Below the pieces are notes generated by a model that did no database searches, had not been told where the DNA came from, and worked only from the letters and a program-made list of their open reading frames with translations. 64,000 nucleotides of DNA from Ilumatobacteraceae bacterium (GTDB lineage Bacteria > Actinomycetota > Acidimicrobiia > Acidimicrobiales > Ilumatobacteraceae), in assembly GCA_018401375.1 (NCBI GenBank), contig JAGYKR010000007.1, positions 1-64,000 on the forward strand, in the 5' to 3' direction. Position numbers and translations under genes: made by a program. Positions 17,408-39,991 of this stretch are shown here, one piece after another. How positions within the stretch are numbered: position 1 is the first letter of the stretch; the number at the start of each line of letters is the position of its first letter.

Positions 17408-18418
17408 TCAGCGGACCAAAGGACTCTTGCCAATCGTTCCCCGCCACAACTGCTCCACCACCACCATGTGCGGCAAGGTCAAGAGGCTGACCATGACGAA
17501 CACGGCGGGCAACAGCAGTTCGGAGCGTCCGTTCATCACCGCAACCCCAGCAAAAACGATGGTCGCAACCACAGAGATCAGCGAGCGAGGCGCTGCGATC
17601 CGAACGAACTCTCGCACCCGCAAGGCCTGCTGAGACGCAGTCCTCGGACCGAGAGCATCCATCACAACGAGCAGGTGCGCCACCGAATGCCACAGCCCGA
17701 AGTACACCGCGAACCCCAGCAGCGGATCGGTCCGCCAAAACAAAACCGCCAAAACCGCCAGGCCGAGGGCCTCACGGCGCACTGTTGCCGGATGAGCGGC
17801 CCGCAACGCCACCGCTCCCCCGATCAGCAGGTGCTGTCCGATCACAAAGAGAAACCACATCCCCCCGTTATCGGCCAGCCAGGACCATGCCGCCGGCTCA
17901 CCCCCGCCGAGATTGGAGATCACTGGACTGATCGCAGCCACATGCGCGATCAGTGGGGCGCCAATGACGAAAACCCCACGCGACCATTGCACCGCCATTT
18001 GGGACACAGGCGACAGCCTCAGATAGGCGAGATCAGATTGTCCAAAATGATGGACCGCCAACAGCAGAAAGATCCCCAGAGCGAGGCCTGGCACTGCCAG
18101 CCAGACCACCCCATATGCAACCATCGCACCGAGATAGCGAACGTTGAATCCGAGAGTGCTGATCACAGCACCCCGGGCGGCTTGGGTGCGTGCTGCGACT
18201 AAGTGATCCACCGCACCGTGGGGAATCCCGAATACTGCGATCACAAAAAACAACACGAGGATTGACCACACTGATAACGACCCCGAGGCTCCTGCCTGCT
18301 GACCCCCGCTCCCGACCAGTGCCACGAGCACAGTCACAGCCACCACCGGACCAAAGATCTTGGGTTGGTGAATCCCGGCCCTCGGGGGTGACGTCAACCT
18401 CACAGAGTTCTGCGTCAT
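17408..18418 (-). CDS. blh: Beta-carotene 15,15'-dioxygenase, Brp/Blh family
   Basis: A membrane enzyme that cleaves beta-carotene symmetrically to two retinal molecules, the chromophore of microbial rhodopsins. It has 336 residues and about eight or nine membrane helices. The iron-ligand His motifs of the family are all seen: GIPHGAVDHL, VHHFGQSD, GLWHSVAHL and LTLPHMVVVE. The ATG at 18418 overlaps the crtY stop (ATGA), so the two are translationally coupled. No rhodopsin gene is in the window and it may lie elsewhere. Confidence 0.93.
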   Translation of the reverse strand: MTQNSVRLTSPPRAGIHQPKIFGPVVAVTVLVALVGSGGQQAGASGSLSVWSILVLFFVIAVFGIPHGAVDHLVAARTQAARGAVISTLGFNVRYLGAMVAYGVVWLAVPGLALGIFLLLAVHHFGQSDLAYLRLSPVSQMAVQWSRGVFVIGAPLIAHVAAISPVISNLGGGEPAAWSWLADNGGMWFLFVIGQHLLIGGAVALRAAHPATVRREALGLAVLAVLFWRTDPLLGFAVYFGLWHSVAHLLVVMDALGPRTASQQALRVREFVRIAAPRSLISVVATIVFAGVAVMNGRSELLLPAVFVMVSLLTLPHMVVVEQLWRGTIGKSPLVR

Positions 18419-19629
18419 CGGTTCCTCACCACCTGGATTTTTGTGGCTAACTTCGCCACCCATTCGTGCGCTGCCGCCCGGAGAAACGGCCACCACGGAA
18501 GCCTTGCAAACAGGCGCGCATCGCGCCGTAGCGAGGAACTCTCCTCTAAGAAGGTCAACACCGTGTCAATGGAAGAGGTCCGAAACAATTTCTCAAAGAT
18601 CGGGCGACCGAGTTCGGGATGCCGATGCAAGATGTTCAGCAAGGTCCGGTCAGCGAACCCGTACCGCCGCGGCGCAGGAGGCAACTCAAGCGGGTAGCCG
18701 TGTTCCAGCCATGTGTTCACCAGATGCTGAGTCTGGGTATGAATCCTTTGGAACGTGTAGCCAGTAGTCGGTTTCGTCCTTCCTCCCACCGTGCCGAGAT
18801 TCCAAATGTGTGCACCCGAGCGTTGGTGCAGCACCCGGTCCTCCATCGGGATCACCCCGTATTCGCGACGTTCGATTCTGATTTCCCCGCCCCCGAGGGC
18901 GGCGAGCCGGCTCTGCAGGTGCGCGTCATAAAACTCCGGTGCCTGCGGATCAAGGGAGAACACCGTGTATTCGATTAACGCCCGATTGCGGGACTCGGGC
19001 AACACATAGAAAAAAGCTGTGTCAAACTGATCACCCGAATTTTGGGCGGTGTCAAAATCCATCAGCGTTGCGATATCAGGATCAAAGATCGGAAGTTCGG
19101 TACACACCTCCCATCCCCCAAAGTGTTGGCGGAGCGGATGACGAACCGGTGCGCTGCGGTCCTGCGGTGAGAGCTGCACACTTTGGAACACGAGCGGGGA
19201 GCGAAACTCCCCAGCCGAAGTGACAACACAGCCACCATCAGGTTCATCGATCACATCGAGAATCTCGGTTTCAATGAACCGAATGTTGGGCCGGTCAGCG
19301 ATCACAGCCTGCACCGCAGCATCAAAATCTCGTTGGCGAACCCGGGCATAGACCCGGCCATCAACGCCAGGACCGCAATCACCGATGACCTGCGTGGTCT
19401 GCCAATCAGGAAATCTGACCTGCACGCTCTTCCACGTGCCGTCTGCGAGGTTCATGAACGGGGCATCCGGTGGACCCCAAAAACCCCAGGTTCGATCATC
19501 GCTTGGCTCCCTACGGCGATCGATCACGAGGATCTCGGTGCTACTCGGCGCACGTTGTGATGCGAACCACAATGCGCTCAGTCCAGCGCATCCGGCTCCG
19601 GCGATAATGAGATCAGCGTCTGGGCGCAT
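18415..19629 (-). CDS. crtY: Lycopene beta-cyclase (CrtY type)
   Basis: A flavoprotein that cyclises both ends of lycopene to beta-carotene. It has 404 residues. The N-terminal dinucleotide-binding segment is LIIAGAGCAGLSALWFA, followed by DDRTWGFW (the family D-R-T-W-x-F-W box) and, in the C-terminal half, GTVGGRTKPTTGYTFQRI. TLLNILHRHPELGRPIFEKLF is also typical of bacterial CrtY. It directly precedes blh, so the pair converts lycopene to retinal. Earlier carotenoid genes (crtE, crtB, crtI) are not in the window. Confidence 0.93.
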   Translation of the reverse strand: MRPDADLIIAGAGCAGLSALWFASQRAPSSTEILVIDRRREPSDDRTWGFWGPPDAPFMNLADGTWKSVQVRFPDWQTTQVIGDCGPGVDGRVYARVRQRDFDAAVQAVIADRPNIRFIETEILDVIDEPDGGCVVTSAGEFRSPLVFQSVQLSPQDRSAPVRHPLRQHFGGWEVCTELPIFDPDIATLMDFDTAQNSGDQFDTAFFYVLPESRNRALIEYTVFSLDPQAPEFYDAHLQSRLAALGGGEIRIERREYGVIPMEDRVLHQRSGAHIWNLGTVGGRTKPTTGYTFQRIHTQTQHLVNTWLEHGYPLELPPAPRRYGFADRTLLNILHRHPELGRPIFEKLFRTSSIDTVLTFLEESSSLRRDARLFARLPWWPFLRAAAHEWVAKLATKIQVVRNR

Positions 19630-19819: not shown

Positions 19820-20992
19820 ATGCTCGCATTTACCTTCCCCGGCCAGGGGTCACAAAAGCCTGGAATGGGCGCGGCCTGGCGTGAACATGAGAGCTGGGAA
19901 CTCGTTGAGGAAGCCAGTGAACACGCTGGCCGCGATGTGGCTGAACTGCTGCTCCACGCCGATGCCGAGACCCTGCGCGACACACGCAACGCCCAACTCA
20001 CCACCTACGTGACAAGCCTGATCGTGCTCGACGCCGTGGCGCGGCTCGGCATTGAAGCTGAGGTCTGCGCTGGTCACAGCCTCGGCGAGTACACCGCTTT
20101 GTCCGCATCCGGAGCCCTCGAGTTTGGCGAAGGTGTCCGCCTCGTCAGCGAACGGGCCGCCGCCATGCACGAGGCCGGATCGGTCCGGATTGGCACCATG
20201 GCCGCCGTGCTCGGTCTGGAAGACGACCAAGTGGAAATCGCGTGTCGCCTCGCCCAATCAGAAGTGTGGGTGGCCAACATCAATGCTCCCGGTCAGATCG
20301 TGATCGCTGGTTCCCCCGAGGGTGTGGCCGCTGCCGGAGAACAAGCCAAGGCACTCGGCGCCAAAAAAGTGATGCCGCTCGCCGTCTCTGGTGCCTTCCA
20401 CACACCGTTTATGGAGCCCGCTCGGGATCGTTTGCGCGCTGCGCTTGAGGCCACCGATCTGCGTGACACCGACATCGCTGTCGTGGCCAATGTGGACTCC
20501 GAAGCCCACAGGCAAGGCGCCCAATGGTCCACACTGCTATCGGCCCAACTCACCAGCCCGGTGCGTTGGAAACAGTGCTTGTTAACCATGGCAGCAATGG
20601 GCATCACCCGGTTTGCTGAGCTCGGACCAGGTGGCGTTTTGACAGGTATGGCCAAACGAACCGTGGACGGTGCGCGCACGATTTCAGTGGCCACGCCCGA
20701 TGATCTGGACAAACTTTTGGAATGGATCGCCGAGATCCCCGCAGTGGCACCACCGAGCGTGGAAGGCGAGTTTTTGTTCGCTGTGGAACGCCTCGTGGTC
20801 AGCCCGGCCGCCGGGATCTTCACTCCGATCGGCCTCGACGACGGCACCCACATCCAAGTTGGCACCTTGATCGGTCACGTCGGAGAGGCAGAGGTCCGCT
20901 CCCCCTTCGCCGGAGTGTTGCAGAGTTATATTGCGGTGCCCACAGAACGCGTGACGCCCCGCCAGCCGATTGCGTGGTTGCGGAGCCTGTAG
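19820..20992 (+). CDS. fabD: Malonyl-CoA:ACP transacylase with C-terminal lipoyl-like domain
   Basis: FabD loads malonyl groups onto ACP for fatty acid synthesis. Residues 1 to about 300 are the transacylase: FPGQGSQ oxyanion loop, GHSLGEY with nucleophile Ser87, and SGAFHTPFM with the partner His. After a linker (PAVAPPSVEGE) residues about 318-390 form a biotinyl/lipoyl-like hammerhead: VVSPAAGIFTPIG ... DGTHIQVGTLIGHV ... VRSPFAGVLQSY. The hairpin that would carry the modified Lys reads GHVGEAEV and has no MKM, so it cannot be biotinylated or lipoylated. Stand-alone FabD is about 300 residues, so this is a fusion. First gene of the fab operon. Confidence 0.92.
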   Translation: MLAFTFPGQGSQKPGMGAAWREHESWELVEEASEHAGRDVAELLLHADAETLRDTRNAQLTTYVTSLIVLDAVARLGIEAEVCAGHSLGEYTALSASGALEFGEGVRLVSERAAAMHEAGSVRIGTMAAVLGLEDDQVEIACRLAQSEVWVANINAPGQIVIAGSPEGVAAAGEQAKALGAKKVMPLAVSGAFHTPFMEPARDRLRAALEATDLRDTDIAVVANVDSEAHRQGAQWSTLLSAQLTSPVRWKQCLLTMAAMGITRFAELGPGGVLTGMAKRTVDGARTISVATPDDLDKLLEWIAEIPAVAPPSVEGEFLFAVERLVVSPAAGIFTPIGLDDGTHIQVGTLIGHVGEAEVRSPFAGVLQSYIAVPTERVTPRQPIAWLRSL

Positions 20993-21022: not shown

Positions 21023-21976
21023 ATGCCTGCAATCAGACCCGGCGCTCATGGGGCCGTCATCACTGGATGGGGATCAGCGGTTCCCGACACTGTGGTGACC
21101 AATGCCGATCTCGAAAAGACCATCGACACCAACGATGAGTGGATCACCTCTCGGACCGGTATCAAAGAGCGCCGTGTCGGTGGGACCACCGTAGGGCTCT
21201 CCGTGGAGTCTGGCCGTCAAGCCCTCGAGCGTTCCGGGGTGGACCCGGCAGCGATCGATGGCTTGATCCTGGCTACCACCACTCCTGATCGGGTCGTGCC
21301 CGCCTCCTCCCCCGTGGTCCAAGATCAACTCGGTCTCTCCTGCGGTGCCTTTGATGTCAATGCTGCGTGTTCGGGTTTTGTGTATGCGCTCGTCACCGCC
21401 CATGGACTGATCGCAATGGGCGCAGAGAAACTGCTGGTGATCGGTACCGACACCCTGGCCCGGATCACCGATTGGACCGACCGCGGTACCGCCCCGTTGT
21501 TTGCTGACGGGTCCGGCGCGGTGGTGCTCGAAGCCACCGAAGGACCCGGACAGCTGCTCGGTTGGGATCTTGACGCCGATGGTTCCGCCGAGAAATTCCT
21601 GTACTGCGATGTGGGCGGCCTGATCATGATGGACGGCAAAGAGGTGTTTCGCCGCGCCGTTCGGATCATGGTGGATTCGGCCACGAAGTCGATGCAACAT
21701 GCCGGGGTGACCGCCGAGGAGATTTCCCACGTGGTCCCTCATCAAGCCAACATCCGGATTATCTCCGCGGCCTGTGATCGTCTCGGCATTCCGTTAGAGA
21801 AGGCCTCGCTCACCATTCACCGCACCGGTAACACCTCTTCGGGATCGATCCCCCTCGCCCTCGCTGACTCATTGGATAACTCCAAGATCGCGCCGGGGGA
21901 TCTCGTGTTACTCGTCGGGTTCGGCGCGGGGATGACCGCAGCGAGTGCGATCCTGCGATGGGGTGGCGTGTCATGA
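21023..21976 (+). CDS. fabH: Beta-ketoacyl-ACP synthase III
   Basis: Condenses acyl-CoA with malonyl-ACP to start fatty acid synthesis. It has 317 residues and a full Cys-His-Asn triad: Cys116 in NAACSGF, His in VPHQAN and Asn in RTGNTSSGS. The N-terminal ITGWGSAVPDTVVTN and DEWITSRTGIKERR blocks are diagnostic. A real Shine-Dalgarno sequence (AGAGGAAT) lies before the ATG, in contrast to the leaderless fabD. Confidence 0.96.
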   Translation: MPAIRPGAHGAVITGWGSAVPDTVVTNADLEKTIDTNDEWITSRTGIKERRVGGTTVGLSVESGRQALERSGVDPAAIDGLILATTTPDRVVPASSPVVQDQLGLSCGAFDVNAACSGFVYALVTAHGLIAMGAEKLLVIGTDTLARITDWTDRGTAPLFADGSGAVVLEATEGPGQLLGWDLDADGSAEKFLYCDVGGLIMMDGKEVFRRAVRIMVDSATKSMQHAGVTAEEISHVVPHQANIRIISAACDRLGIPLEKASLTIHRTGNTSSGSIPLALADSLDNSKIAPGDLVLLVGFGAGMTAASAILRWGGVS

Positions 21977-22680
21977 GTCGCATCGTGTTGATCACCGGCG
22001 GATCCAAAGGGATCGGTTTGGCCTGCGCACGAATGTTCAGTGATCTGGGCGACAAGGTGGCGGTCACCTATAACTCGTCCCCGCCCCCCGAGGGTCTGTT
22101 CGGCGTCAAATGTGATGTCACCTCAACCGCCGAAGTAGACGCAGCCTTCAGCACCGTTGAAGAACATTTCGGTGGACCGGTGGAGATCTTGGTCTCCAAT
22201 GCGGGGGTCACCAAAGACGGCCTCCTGCTGCGGATGGGTGAAGAAGACTTCGCCTCGGTGATCGATGCCAACCTCACTGGCGCCTTCCGGGTCACTCGTC
22301 GGGCAGCATCGGGGATGGTCCGGGCTCGAGCGGGCCGCATCATATTGATGTCCTCGGTGGTCGGTCTGCTCGGCTCAGCCGGGCAGGTGAACTACGCCGC
22401 CGCTAAAGCCGGTCTCGTAGGCCTCGCCCGATCCCTAGCACGCGAACTCGGTTCGCGGGGGATCACCACAAATGTGGTCGCCCCCGGTCCGGTGGCCACC
22501 GACATGACCGCAGGGCTCGGCGAAAAACGCCTCGCCGAACTCACCGCAGCAGTCCCGCTCGGACGCATGGCCACACCCGAAGAGATCGCCGCGACGGTGG
22601 TCTTCCTCGCTTCACCCGCCGCTGGTTACATCACGGGAGCCGTGATCCCTGTGGATGGCGGCCTCGGAATGGGTCATTAA
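21973..22680 (+). CDS. fabG: 3-oxoacyl-ACP reductase
   Basis: NADPH-dependent reduction of 3-oxoacyl-ACP. It is a short-chain dehydrogenase of 235 residues with the cofactor motif TGGSKGIG, SNAG in place of the usual NNAG, catalytic Ser in LMSSVVG and YxxxK in YAAAKAG. Start by ATGA overlap with fabH. The stop TAA falls inside the first copy of a threefold 16-base repeat. Confidence 0.93.
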   Translation: MSRIVLITGGSKGIGLACARMFSDLGDKVAVTYNSSPPPEGLFGVKCDVTSTAEVDAAFSTVEEHFGGPVEILVSNAGVTKDGLLLRMGEEDFASVIDANLTGAFRVTRRAASGMVRARAGRIILMSSVVGLLGSAGQVNYAAAKAGLVGLARSLARELGSRGITTNVVAPGPVATDMTAGLGEKRLAELTAAVPLGRMATPEEIAATVVFLASPAAGYITGAVIPVDGGLGMGH

Positions 22681-22828: not shown

Positions 22829-23065
22829 GTGAATCAAGAATTGTTTGCCCGCTTCCGCAAATGTGCCGTTGAGGTGCTGTCGGTGTCTGAGGATCAAGTG
22901 ACCCTCGAAGCCAAGTTCGGTGATGACCTCGACGCTGACTCCCTTGACCTCGTGGAACTGGTCATGGCGCTCGAAGAGGAGTTCGGGGTGGAAGTCCCCG
23001 AGGAAGAACTTGAAGACATCCAAACTGTCGGCCAGGCGTTCGAACTGGTCACCGGCAAGCTCTGA
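22829..23065 (+). CDS. acpP: Acyl carrier protein
   Basis: Carries the growing acyl chain on a phosphopantetheine arm. It is a predicted 78-residue acidic protein with attachment site [12 protein letters not shown], Ser38. The GTG at 22829 is chosen because AAGGAG lies 8 bases upstream and the length then matches the family. The earlier in-frame ATG would add a 33-residue tail unlike ACP. The stop overlaps the fabF start (TGATG). Confidence 0.95.
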
Positions 23066-24246
23066 TGGACGGCCGCCAGCGGCGCGTGGCTGTGACCGGC
23101 CTCGGGGTGGTGGCACCCTGCGGGCTTGGTCGCGAGGCCTACTGGCAAGGCCTGCTCGGAAGCGGGATCTCCGGGTCCACTTCGGCGACGATCACCGATT
23201 GGGATCCCTCGCCGTACTTCGCTAACCCCAAAGAGGCCCGACGGGCCGACCGGGTAGAACAACTGGCCTTAGCCGCTGCTGCTGAGGCGTTTGAGCAATC
23301 GGGTATGCCCTCAGGAGATCTGTCGCGCTTTGGCACCATTTTTGGCACGGGCGTTGGCGGCATCCACACACTCGAAGAACAAATTGAGGTGCGCCTCACG
23401 AAAGGTGAGCGACGGGTCTCACCGTTCCTCGTGCCGATGATGATGGCCAACGCTCCAGGGGCGGCGATCTCGATGCGTTACGGCCTGACCGGGCCCAACT
23501 GGACAGTGGTGACCACATGCGCCGCGAGCACACACTCCATTGGCTCAGCCAAACCGACTGATCGCTTGAGCGCTGTGATGCGGTGGCTACCGGCGGGGCA
23601 AGCGCAGCCACACTCACCTCAATGGCCGGTTTTGGCAACATGACGGCGCTGTCCACCACCGGTGTGAGCCGACCCTTTGACGCTGGTCGGGACGGGTTTG
23701 TGATGGGTGAAGGTGCAGCGGTTTTGATTCTTGAAGAAGAATGGGAGCGGGCGGAGGCTCGTGAAGCGACCATCCTCGGTGAGATTCTTGGAGCGGCGAG
23801 TAACGCTGACGCCCATCACATCACCACCGGCCCCTGGTGGGGTGGGCGCAATCAACTGCATTGCGCCTCGCTCTCAGTGACGCCGGGCTTGATCCCGCAC
23901 AGTCGTGCGAATCAGCGCACCTGGCACCTCCACGCCGTTAAACGACTATTGCTTTGAAGTATGCGTGCGCGCCGTATTCGGTGCAAACGCCGTACCGATC
24001 ACCTCCACCAAGGTGTGACGGGTCACGCTCTCGGTGCAGCCGGAGCACTCGGGCTGCACAGCGGTATTGCTGTCTATGCAACACCGCTTGTTGATCCCTC
24101 CCCTGCGAATACCGCAACAGTGGATCCAGACTTTGAGATCGATCTCGTTCTGGGGCACCTCTCGGGAGTGGACGCCAGGGCCGACCATTTCCAATAACTT
24201 CGGCTTCGGTGGCCACAACGGCTCCGTGATCATCGCTCCGGCGTAG
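23065..24246 (+). pseudogene. fabF: Beta-ketoacyl-ACP synthase II, frameshifted in this sequence
   Basis: Elongating condensing enzyme. The first 160 codons are intact: RVAVTGLGVVAPCG and the active-site Cys in TVVTTCAASTHSIGSA. Two single-base insertions (near 23551 and 23566) shift to VATGGASAATLTSMAGF and FVMGEGAAVLILEE. More indels follow between 23840 and 24180, where the His motifs are recovered across frames (SAHGTSTPLNDYC, then VTGHALGAAGAL). The C-terminus NNFGFGGHNGSVII is clean to the TAG at 24246. The conserved motifs argue that the errors are in the sequence, not the gene. Overlaps acpP by one base. Confidence 0.88.
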
Positions 24247-35032: not shown

Positions 35033-36637
35033 ATGCCCATCCTCAGTGATCAGATCGATCCGCGCTCAGCGGCCTACCAAGCTAACGCTGCGCACATGCT
35101 GGAGTTATTGGCCGAACACGATCGTCAACTCGCCATCGCCAACGCCGGTGGTGGCGAAAAGTATGTGGCCCGTCATCGTCAACGCGGCAAGTTACTGATC
35201 CGCGAACGCATCCAACTGCTGATCGATCCGGATTCGGCCTTCCTTGAACTCTCCCCGCTTGCGGCCTGGGGTACGGACTTCCCGGTGGGTGCCGGCACGG
35301 TCACCGGGATCGGTGTGATCGAAGGCGTGGAATGCATGATTACCGGCAATGATTCCACGGTGCGCGGTGGCACCAGCGGGCTCGCCGGTGTTCGCAAATC
35401 TCTTCGGGCACTCGAGATCGCGATCGAGAATCGTTTGCCGTTTATCTCGCTCACTGAGTCAGGCGGGGCCGACCTGCCACACCAGAGCGACATTTTTATC
35501 CCGGGCGGCAAAACCTTCCATGACATCACCACCTTGTCGGCCATGGGTGTACCCACCATGTCGATCGTGTTCGGATCCTCCACCGCCGGTGGGGCGTATC
35601 AGCCGGGGATGAGCGATTACGTGGTGATGATCGACAAACGATCCAAGGTGTTCCTCGGTGGGCCACCGCTCGTCAAAATGGCTACCGGAGAAGAAAGCGA
35701 CGATGAGAGCCTCGGCGGGGCCGAGATGCACGCCAGGGTCAGCGGTCTTGCCGACTATTTCGCCACCGACGAGTTTGATGCGATCCGAATCGGTCGCCAG
35801 ATCATGCGCCGGATCAACCATCGCAAACTCGGTCCCGGCCCGCGCGGTGCTGGCCGTGCCCCGCACTACAGCCCTGAGCAGTTGCTCGGAATCCCCTCCG
35901 CTGACCTCAAGGTGCCGTTCGATCCTCGAGATGTGATCGCTCGCATCGTCGATGAGAGCGATTTTGATGAGTTCAAGCCGCTGTATGGCTCCTCGCTGGT
36001 GACCGGCTACGCCGAAATCCACGGCTACAACGTGGGCATCTTGGCGAACCACCGTGGGGTGCTCTTTAACGAGGAATCCCAAAAGGCCGCTCAGTTCATC
36101 CAGCTCGCGAACCAGACCGACACCCCTTTGGTGTTCTTACAAAACACCACCGGCTACATGGTGGGTAAACAGTACGAGCAGCGCGGGATCGTCAAAGACG
36201 GATCGAAGATGATCAACGCGGTCTCCAACTCCTCTGTTCCGCATCTCACGATCAACATGGGCGCGTCATACGGCGCCGGTAACTACGGCATGTGTGGACG
36301 CCCGTTTGGGCCACGGCTGCTATTCACCTGGCCGCATGCCAAGACTGCGGTGATGGGCCCTCAACAACTCGCCGGCGTGTTGTCCATCGTGGCTCGTCAG
36401 TCTGCCGAGTCCATGGGGCGGCCCTTTGATGAAGAGGCCGATGCCCAGATGCGCGCCGCCGTGGAAGCACAGATTGAGCGTGAATCACTCGCCCCATTTA
36501 TGACGGGCAAACTGTATGACGACGGGATCATTGATCCCCGAGATACCCGCACCGTGCTCGGAATCGCGTTGTCGGTAGTCCATAACAATGTGATTCGGGG
36601 CCGTCACGGTGACGGCTTCGGAGTCTTCCGAATGTGA
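35033..36637 (+). CDS. Acyl-CoA carboxylase carboxyltransferase subunit (methylcrotonyl/geranyl-CoA type)
   Basis: A 534-residue biotin-dependent carboxyltransferase. N-terminal carboxyltransferase half: RHRQRGKLLIRERI, PFISLTESGGADLPHQ, GSSTAGGAYQPGMSDY, VFLGGPPLVKMATGEE. C-terminal half: FLQNTTGYMVGKQYE, NMGASYGAGNYGMCGRPFGPR and the AVMGPQQLAGVL block, which is typical of beta subunits of methylcrotonyl-CoA and geranyl-CoA carboxylases rather than propionyl-CoA carboxylase. It lies 3 bases after the hydratase and is paired with the biotin carboxylase at 37982. Confidence 0.9.
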   Translation: MPILSDQIDPRSAAYQANAAHMLELLAEHDRQLAIANAGGGEKYVARHRQRGKLLIRERIQLLIDPDSAFLELSPLAAWGTDFPVGAGTVTGIGVIEGVECMITGNDSTVRGGTSGLAGVRKSLRALEIAIENRLPFISLTESGGADLPHQSDIFIPGGKTFHDITTLSAMGVPTMSIVFGSSTAGGAYQPGMSDYVVMIDKRSKVFLGGPPLVKMATGEESDDESLGGAEMHARVSGLADYFATDEFDAIRIGRQIMRRINHRKLGPGPRGAGRAPHYSPEQLLGIPSADLKVPFDPRDVIARIVDESDFDEFKPLYGSSLVTGYAEIHGYNVGILANHRGVLFNEESQKAAQFIQLANQTDTPLVFLQNTTGYMVGKQYEQRGIVKDGSKMINAVSNSSVPHLTINMGASYGAGNYGMCGRPFGPRLLFTWPHAKTAVMGPQQLAGVLSIVARQSAESMGRPFDEEADAQMRAAVEAQIERESLAPFMTGKLYDDGIIDPRDTRTVLGIALSVVHNNVIRGRHGDGFGVFRM

Positions 36638-37981: not shown

Positions 37982-39991
37982 ATGACTTTGATTCGATCCC
38001 TTTTGATCGCGAACCGTGGCGAAATCGCCTGTCGGATCGCGCGCACCGCCCGGGATCTCGGCATCCGCACCATCGCGATCCATAGCGACGCTGACGCGGA
38101 TGCCCTCCATGTCAGCACCTGCGATCAGGCCGTGGCCTTACCCGGAGACGCCCCAGCCGATACGTATCTGCGCACCGACCTCATCATCGCAGCGGCCCGA
38201 CGCACCGGTGCCGAGGCTATTCATCCGGGTTACGGGTTTCTTGCTGAGAACGCTGCTTTTGCTCAGGCAGTGATCGATGCCGGCTTGATCTGGATCGGAC
38301 CGCCTCCCACAGCGATTGCCGCGATGGGATCCAAGGTGGAAGCCAAGGCCGCCATGCGAACCGCCGGCGTTCCGGTGTTGCCAGATTCCTCAGTAGAGGG
38401 GATCGACCAGATCGGCATGCCATTGTTGATAAAGGCCTCTGCCGGCGGTGGTGGACGCGGAATGCGCATCGTGCGCGACTCCGCCCAACTAGCCGAGTCG
38501 CTGGAGATCGCGACCCGTGAGGCAGTGTCTGCTTTTGGGGATGGGACCGTGTTTTGTGAGCGCTATGTGGAGCGCAGCCGCCACATAGAGATCCAAGTGA
38601 TGGCCGACCATCACGGCAATACCGTGGCCTTATTCGAACGCGAATGCTCGATCCAGCGGCGACACCAAAAGATTGTCGAAGAAGCCCCCTCCCCCGCTGT
38701 CACCCCCGAACTACGGTCCCGGCTGTGTGAGGCCGCAGTGACCGCTGCCCGCAACGTCGGCTACATCGGGGCGGGCACCGTGGAATTCTTAATGGACCCG
38801 GCCGGCGAGTTCTACTTCTTAGAAATGAACACCCGTTTGCAGGTGGAGCATCCCGTCACCGAAATGATCACCGGGCTCGATCTCGTGGCCTTACAGATCC
38901 GTATCGCCGAAGGCCACCCGTTGCCAGCGGAGGCTCTGCACCCAACGATCACCGGGCATTCGATCGAGGTCAGACTGACCGCCGAGGACCCAGCCCAGAA
39001 CTACATGCCGATGACCGGAACATTCCATCGGTTTGAACTGCCGCACACCGCCGGCATCCGAGTGGATACCGGGATCTCCTCGGGATCGGTCATCAGCCCG
39101 CACTACGACTCGATGGTGGCCAAGGTGATCGCTCACGGAACCGACCGTCTCGATGCGATCCGACGCCTCCACCGTGCCCTGACTGAATCCAAAGTGCATG
39201 GCCCGACCACCAATCTGGACCAGTTACGTCAGATTCTCCTCGACCCCCGATTCCAAAGTGGGGACATGCACACCGGGTTCCTTGAAGATGATCCGTGCAT
39301 CACCCCCACCGCCACCTCTGACCTAGAGTTCGTTGCAGTGGCCCTCACCATGCAGGCCCGCCATCGGGCTTCGGCTACTGCTTGGGCATTCACTCCCTCT
39401 GGTTGGAGGAACAATGCAGCCGTTGCACACGCGGTCACGATCCTTGACGGTGACCGAGAAGTTGAGGTCCGCTACGTGCTCGGCCGAACGTTGACCGTGG
39501 AGATCACCGACATTGATCAAGCAGATCCAGCAGATCCAACTGGCAGTCCCAACATCCGTCAGGTCCCCATCTCTCAGTGGGAGGCCGACACCGCAGGGGT
39601 GTCCCTCAGCGTGGATGGGCTGAGCGCCTGTTATGAGGTGGATCTCGTCACCGATATGAATCGGACTGTGGCCTATGTACACAGTCCAGATGGGTCGCGA
39701 CGGCTGTTCGTTCAGCCGCGATTCCCGGCCGTGAATCTCGCCGGTACGGCGGGTTCGCTGACAGCGCCGATGCCCGGTGCGATCCGTCGGGTCTATGTGA
39801 GCGTGGGGGAACTGGTAACCGCCGGAACCCCACTTCTCGCCTTGGAGGCGATGAAAATGGAACATCAGGTCCTCGCTCCAGCGGACGGGATCGTGGCCGA
39901 GGTCATGATCGGTGTCGGCGATCAGGTGGACACCGGCCAAACCCTGTTGCGCTTAGAGGACGCCAACGAAGATCAAGGAGAAACATCATGA
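37982..39991 (+). CDS. Acyl-CoA carboxylase biotin carboxylase/BCCP subunit
   Basis: 669 residues. Biotin carboxylase: LLIANRGEIACRIARTARDLG, IHPGYGFLAENAAFA, ATP-grasp glycine loop KASAGGGGRGMRIV, VLFE-like catalytic blocks (ECSIQRRHQKIVEEAP, EFYFLEMNTRLQVEHPVTE, each within length limits in part). A C-terminal biotin carrier domain has AMKMEHQV with the biotinylated Lys. It pairs with the carboxyltransferase at 35033 to carboxylate a 3-methyl-enoyl-CoA. GGAG lies 7 bases before the ATG. Confidence 0.92.
   Translation: MTLIRSLLIANRGEIACRIARTARDLGIRTIAIHSDADADALHVSTCDQAVALPGDAPADTYLRTDLIIAAARRTGAEAIHPGYGFLAENAAFAQAVIDAGLIWIGPPPTAIAAMGSKVEAKAAMRTAGVPVLPDSSVEGIDQIGMPLLIKASAGGGGRGMRIVRDSAQLAESLEIATREAVSAFGDGTVFCERYVERSRHIEIQVMADHHGNTVALFERECSIQRRHQKIVEEAPSPAVTPELRSRLCEAAVTAARNVGYIGAGTVEFLMDPAGEFYFLEMNTRLQVEHPVTEMITGLDLVALQIRIAEGHPLPAEALHPTITGHSIEVRLTAEDPAQNYMPMTGTFHRFELPHTAGIRVDTGISSGSVISPHYDSMVAKVIAHGTDRLDAIRRLHRALTESKVHGPTTNLDQLRQILLDPRFQSGDMHTGFLEDDPCITPTATSDLEFVAVALTMQARHRASATAWAFTPSGWRNNAAVAHAVTILDGDREVEVRYVLGRTLTVEITDIDQADPADPTGSPNIRQVPISQWEADTAGVSLSVDGLSACYEVDLVTDMNRTVAYVHSPDGSRRLFVQPRFPAVNLAGTAGSLTAPMPGAIRRVYVSVGELVTAGTPLLALEAMKMEHQVLAPADGIVAEVMIGVGDQVDTGQTLLRLEDANEDQGETS

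Follow-up and report, generated by a model that had tools for sequence, protein, structure and literature searches.

A conserved domain of predicted biotinyl/lipoyl fold that lacks the attachment lysine is encoded with FabD in Acidimicrobiia and other Actinomycetota

Results

The fabD reading frame and its neighbourhood

The window analysed here is a stretch of 64,000 nucleotides from a genome of the family Ilumatobacteraceae. On its forward strand, where all features lie unless stated otherwise, a 390-residue open reading frame (19820..20992) encodes a predicted malonyl-CoA:ACP transacylase, FabD (the enzyme that supplies fatty-acid synthesis with malonyl units), with a C-terminal biotinyl-like domain, as judged from its translation, Pfam and the comparison of a model with solved FabD. 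The acyltransferase domain (residues 4-291; 19829..20692) was matched by Pfam Acyl_transf_1 (PF00698) at 8.4e-33, and its FPGQG, GHSLGE and AFH motifs, which we take to hold the active site, were located. A full-length model aligned with solved FabD at a Z of about 30, the matched part being residues 1-309 only. Given this acyltransferase fold and the GHSLG and AFH motifs, the protein can be assigned to FabD, with transacylase activity predicted. It shares its catalytic domain and motifs with single-domain FabD, but is roughly 80 residues longer and carries an extra domain.

The catalytic domain is followed by a variable linker at about residues 302-313 (20723..20758), of low identity among relatives and low pLDDT, and then by a tail of about 76 residues in two similar halves. 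This tail (residues 314-390; 20759..20989) was assigned from profiles, an isolated model and fold matches as a lysine-less domain of the biotinyl/lipoyl fold (barrel-sandwich hybrid, BSH). Counted on the translation, SPAAGIFTPIG begins at residue 328, GHVGEAEV at 352 and SPFAGVLQSY at 361. Ahead of the canonical biotinyl strands, column conservation marks a family-specific segment, EGEFLFAVER (residues 315-324; 20762..20791), whilst GHVGEAEV (residues 352-359; 20873..20896) forms a shortened hairpin at the EAMKM place of carriers, located by alignment with three EAMKM domains from the same genome. Mean identity to the window protein across 49 relatives (L002-L051 minus L050, which is cut) was 68% in the domain, 72% in the catalytic domain and 30% in the linker (here residues 299-313). 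Judged against the linker, the conservation of the domain appears to be more than chance. In the full-length model, built on 12 alignment rows, pLDDT fell below 50 at residues 310-322; it also showed the strands of the tail, where pLDDT averaged 64 to 91 per block (residues 321-390).

Downstream lie fabH, the usual next gene (21023..21976; Pfam ACP_syn_III and ACP_syn_III_C, and neighbourhood), fabG (21958..22680) and an acyl carrier protein gene (22829..23065), both named by sequence, and fabF (23065..23957), which is open only in two pieces that overlap and differ in frame, each with a Pfam ketoacyl-synt match. These pieces match successive parts of the profile, pointing either to an error in sequencing or to a disrupted gene. 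On the other side of fabD, a beta-carotene 15,15'-dioxygenase (PF15461) adjoins a lycopene cyclase (PF05834) on the reverse strand (17408-19629), a pair that could make retinal.

Among the loci collected from other genomes, the usual order was fabD, domain, fabH, fabG, acp and fabF, with the domain mostly between fabD and fabH. In several loci fabH was not found beside the domain (e.g., L055, L058, L069 and L247), and four f91/f98 loci read domain-fabH-acp-fabF-accD, without fabD. Two genomes, G012 (L248) and G006 (L250), hold stand-alone copies of the domain with no fab or acc genes in the fetched flanks; these copies adjoin open reading frames that resemble pyrimidine genes (named by sequence).

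Fold and homology of the tail

Searches with the window domain alone gave little: Pfam Biotin_lipoyl stayed below its gathering score (E 0.021, 15.1 bits vs 22.1), the best phmmer match among PDB sequences reached only E 1.6, and an NCBIfam search returned weak, non-specific matches only. Pfam and PDB searches with one sequence being too weak to decide, the fold was settled by profiles and the isolated model. Pfam Biotin_lipoyl matched 13 of 18 relatives' domains at E ≤ 1 (best 4.5e-6), some of which may pass the gathering score. A profile of the 18 relatives found a solved biotinyl domain at 2.7e-8, and one of 51 relatives gave three best rows at 9.6e-13 to 5.4e-9, the first of these being an E2 chain of several domains in which no one stretch passed by itself. 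The biotin_lipoyl domain search proposed by an earlier, sequence-only reading of this DNA thus fails on the single sequence, where the match is below threshold, and succeeds with profiles of relatives, which do find biotinyl domains.

Because the fold match of the full-length model spanned residues 1-309 only, the tail was also predicted in isolation. With 51 alignment rows, AlphaFold2 returned a mean pLDDT of 94.9, lowest in the first ten residues (mean 76). The best VIA-align row was the E. coli biotin carboxyl carrier protein (BCCP, 4hr7_G; Z 11.0, rmsd 1.1 Å over 66 residues), with adaptors about tied, and Foldseek placed the efflux adaptor BesA first (2.5e-6) and BCCP near it (9.0e-6). 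The tail is therefore predicted to adopt the biotinyl/lipoyl fold, a two-fold hammerhead beta barrel. The sequence-only reading had claimed two hammerhead-like halves at about residues 318-390, and the confident model and the BCCP match bear this out; the structural dissimilarity to biotinyl/lipoyl domains that would have spoken against it was not seen in the predicted structure.

The domain resembles BCCP (Pfam Biotin_lipoyl) in fold, in its two hammerhead-like halves and by profile homology. It differs in having no attachment lysine, the hairpin being shortened or mostly glycine there, in the extra conserved segment, and in being fused to or encoded beside FabD. Within that segment, GExLxxxER, conservation over 157 distinct sequences was 89% for G, 93% and 90% for the two E and 94% for R. 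The BSH domains of the efflux adaptors BesA, MacA and MexA and of CphZ and EutE share the fold and are among the best structural matches, but belong to periplasmic adaptors or hydrolases.

The attachment lysine is missing throughout the family

The attachment column was set by alignment with the three EAMKM domains of the window genome. In 157 distinct copies this column held no lysine, a gap in 90 copies (the shortened hairpin), glycine in 48 and other residues in 19; this set omits L162-L166 (the window genome's own regular carriers), any hit above 1e-5 or split across more than 150 residues, and later-fetched loci. A recount with the later loci added and only copies close behind FabD kept (170 distinct copies, the window's included) again gave no lysine, with 90 gaps, 53 glycines and 27 others. 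Lysine in neighbouring columns accounted for five cells in the first set (1, 1 and 3) and four in the second (1, 1 and 2). Lysine-bearing relatives, the form expected of an ancestral carrier, were sought among both sets of copies and none was found. Lysine was also scarce overall, making up 0.6% of residues in the 157 distinct domains vs 2.0% in the FabD domains of 216 loci, although the two sets differ.

The earlier description of the domain as lysine-less thus holds across both sets. It had also proposed that GHVGEAEV replaces the EAMKM hairpin: the place and the missing lysine agree, whereas a residue-for-residue swap does not, as the hairpin of the fused type is about four residues shorter than that of EAMKM carriers. 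An equal-length swap occurs instead in stand-alone relatives, which have an EGPGT-type hairpin with glycine in place of the lysine. By the lysine at the hairpin tip that marks a carrier, the tail would not be classed as one.

Elsewhere in the window genome there are five regular Biotin_lipoyl matches, and thus no shortage of carriers. One regular EAMKM domain lies in the window itself (39758-39955, +) within a 684-residue open frame, a few kilobases after a carboxyltransferase homologue (35204-36571, +). On contig C2 of the same genome, a 625-residue open reading frame (L329:2679-4553, +) combines an ESMKL-type biotinyl domain with a carboxyltransferase homologue, an order that is unusual for a carboxylase. 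In the acc operon at locus L233 (genome G580), a fused carboxyltransferase is accompanied by an AccB-like open reading frame whose biotinyl domain lacks the lysine and by the start of a biotin carboxylase. This AccB-like frame was considered as a second lysine-less example and rejected, since none of the nine other genomes tried matched it and its middle looks out of frame.

Distribution as a fusion or as a separate gene

We sampled 395 genomes of the window's class and 396 of its phylum. In the window's family, the FabD match reached residue 389 or 390 in all 30 sampled genomes (L001-L030, the window's own included). The survey of Acidimicrobiia suggested by the sequence-only reading was made with a tail profile at E ≤ 1e-12, a limit of our choosing, and by hand count found the tail in 30/30 genomes of the family, 87/121 of the rest of the order and 43/244 of the rest of the class. 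The tail is accordingly not absent from close relatives, an outcome that would have counted against it. At 1e-9, 63 of the 396 genomes of the phylum sample matched, 43 of them outside the class.

The domain is fused to FabD throughout the family sample and in a large part of the order. In other members of the class and phylum it usually forms a small gene of its own immediately downstream of fabD, a state that the sequence-only reading could not have seen. Across 110 loci (L052-L161), picked for a FabD match or the domain and with some genomes present twice, it was fused in 65, a separate open reading frame after fabD in 41 and lacking in two, with no FabD found in the remaining two. Outside the class, it lay next to FabD in 33 of 40 loci, drawn from 38 of the 43 matching genomes, and four of these were fusions (L184-L186 and L195). 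All 234 loci with FabD, near-copies and repeats included, comprised 127 fused, 76 separate and 31 with neither. FabD is of the ordinary kind in lineages that lack the domain, and in twelve domain-less loci of the class, from eight family codes, fabH directly follows fabD.

The domain makes up a conserved family of its own, joined to FabD in one chain in some genomes and encoded by a small gene accompanying fabD in others, and its status as a family is new here; among the papers available to a literature search, none linked FabD to a domain of this kind. On a FabD tree of 147 rows, made by a quick method with SH-aLRT support only and uncertain for long rows such as L195, the fused label required six changes in the best tree; when supported branches only are counted, the minimum was two. 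Fusion to FabD, or separation from it, thus seems to have happened repeatedly.

Association with accD

Downstream of fabF, accD, which encodes the carboxyltransferase of an acyl-CoA carboxylase, was present in 39 stand-alone loci and absent from one with room for it (L238), with 29 too short to score. Presence was counted at any length and absence only where more than 900 bases followed fabF, and with this unequal rule 39/40 overstates the link. Sixteen of the 29 short loci were extended (2 with accD, 14 without), leaving 13 unscored; extension of stand-alone loci overall revealed accD in three more (G009, G166 and G403) and 14 without. Extended loci without accD after fabF made up 12/13 outside the class and 2/4 inside it. 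Amongst fused loci, accD occurred in 0/13 with room, in 1/20 extended (a different paralogue) and in 0/3 more. Of 20 extended loci taken as domain-less, one had accD (G417), two were too short and five showed no fabF (L310, L317, L319, L323 and L324). Domain-less status was checked at the fabD locus for 14 of these and for G417, whose operon holds accD but no such domain in the fabD-fabH gap, and by genome-level searches only for G038, G129, G005, G429 and G402.

An independent-pairs test of the link yielded three pairs and no significance, and scored G328 as accD-positive although its accD is another paralogue. The counts are dominated by related lineages. Our first view, that accD strongly supports a carboxylase link, was dropped after the extended loci and the scoring bias were considered: the association holds in some lineages only, follows phylogeny and proves nothing by itself. 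The sequence-only reading had suggested that the extra domain could hold FabD near ACP or the acyl-CoA carboxylase, and the gene neighbourhood gives modest, phylogenetically confounded support for the carboxylase side.

In both G162 (L134) and G649 (L196), accD is the gene immediately downstream of the domain gene, and the fetched stretches of 6.5 and 7.3 kb contain none of fabD, fabH, acp and fabF. This placement is more telling than the operon counts, but amounts to two cases only. Compared with six homologues of the window genome, 9/10 accD genes from the class (taken from operons and from G162) matched the copy on contig C34 best (45-58% identity), whilst accD from outside the class, that of G649 included, was closest to the copy on C43; the two accD-only cases therefore involve different paralogues. 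In mycobacteria, fabD and accD6 are kept in one operon.

Discussion

The most likely account of these observations is that a conserved non-carrier domain, fused to FabD or encoded next to it, binds FabD or FabD's supplier. We infer the binding, its partner and its effect. The domain would be a docking module and not a carrier, derived from a carrier-type ancestor whose lysine was lost whilst a face for contact with other proteins was retained. It would probably tether FabD to the acyl-CoA carboxylase that makes malonyl-CoA. Contact would likely be made by the conserved segment that precedes the fold (GExLxxxER) and by the AWLR end. Malonyl-CoA could then be made beside the enzyme using it, or the assembly of the carboxylase could be tuned, as with plant BADC. 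To our knowledge, no BADC is fused to FabD. Plant BADC proteins are BCCP-like, are without a biotinylation motif, help to assemble the carboxylase and are tied to malonyl-CoA synthesis; an inhibitory role has also been proposed (PMC11926652). The likeness to our domain is one of anatomy only, namely a BCCP-like domain without the biotinylation motif, and BADC differ in being plastid proteins that act on BC-BCCP. By this analogy, a non-carrier docking module that links FabD with malonyl-CoA supply is our main reading, held tentatively at a probability of roughly 0.4.

The fused or adjacent distribution and the BADC precedent lead us to prefer this docking role, with a structural role next. As the main rival, the domain, whether fused or bound as a small subunit, would stabilise FabD, set its oligomeric state or shield its active site without any carboxylase link. 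FabD is indeed the commonest neighbour or fusion partner, and the same fold occurs inside other enzymes, CphZ and EutE being among the fold matches; we know of no cofactor on the fold domains of either. We nevertheless consider a purely structural role rather unlikely, given that other lineages' FabD does without the domain and that its gene lies away from fabD in some genomes: before accD in G162 and G649, before fabH in the four f91/f98 loci, and near neither in the fetched flanks of G006 and G012. Docking of FabD to ACP or to FabH/FabF, to organise the elongation enzymes, would also suit the gene order, since most loci place the domain between fabD and fabH and those same four have it beside fabH but lack fabD. 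This is improbable in our estimation, as fabH was not found beside the domain in several loci, the two accD-only loci show none of these genes, and nothing in the gene neighbourhood was specific to ACP.

Strong conservation extending to residues ahead of the fold core could instead point to a regulatory domain that binds a small ligand, e.g., acyl-CoA or a nucleotide, yet neither sequence nor fold searches gave a pointer to a ligand, and we regard this as distinctly improbable. The fold alone favours a working carrier modified at another residue, which we judge least probable by far given the lysine-free attachment column and the scarcity of lysine overall.

The docking reading has a more specific and somewhat doubtful form, in which the family would be a bacterial counterpart of BADC. 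Descended from a biotinyl domain but not biotinylated, it would couple the acyl-CoA carboxylase and FabD of Actinomycetota in a complex for handing over malonyl-CoA, and would have undergone fusion to FabD on at least two branches. What began as an odd tail on one protein is now a family with a clear association signal, fused or adjacent to FabD across much of the phylum sample. With this family one can test directly whether the making of malonyl-CoA and the transfer of its malonyl group, both steps of a central pathway, are physically coupled in bacteria.
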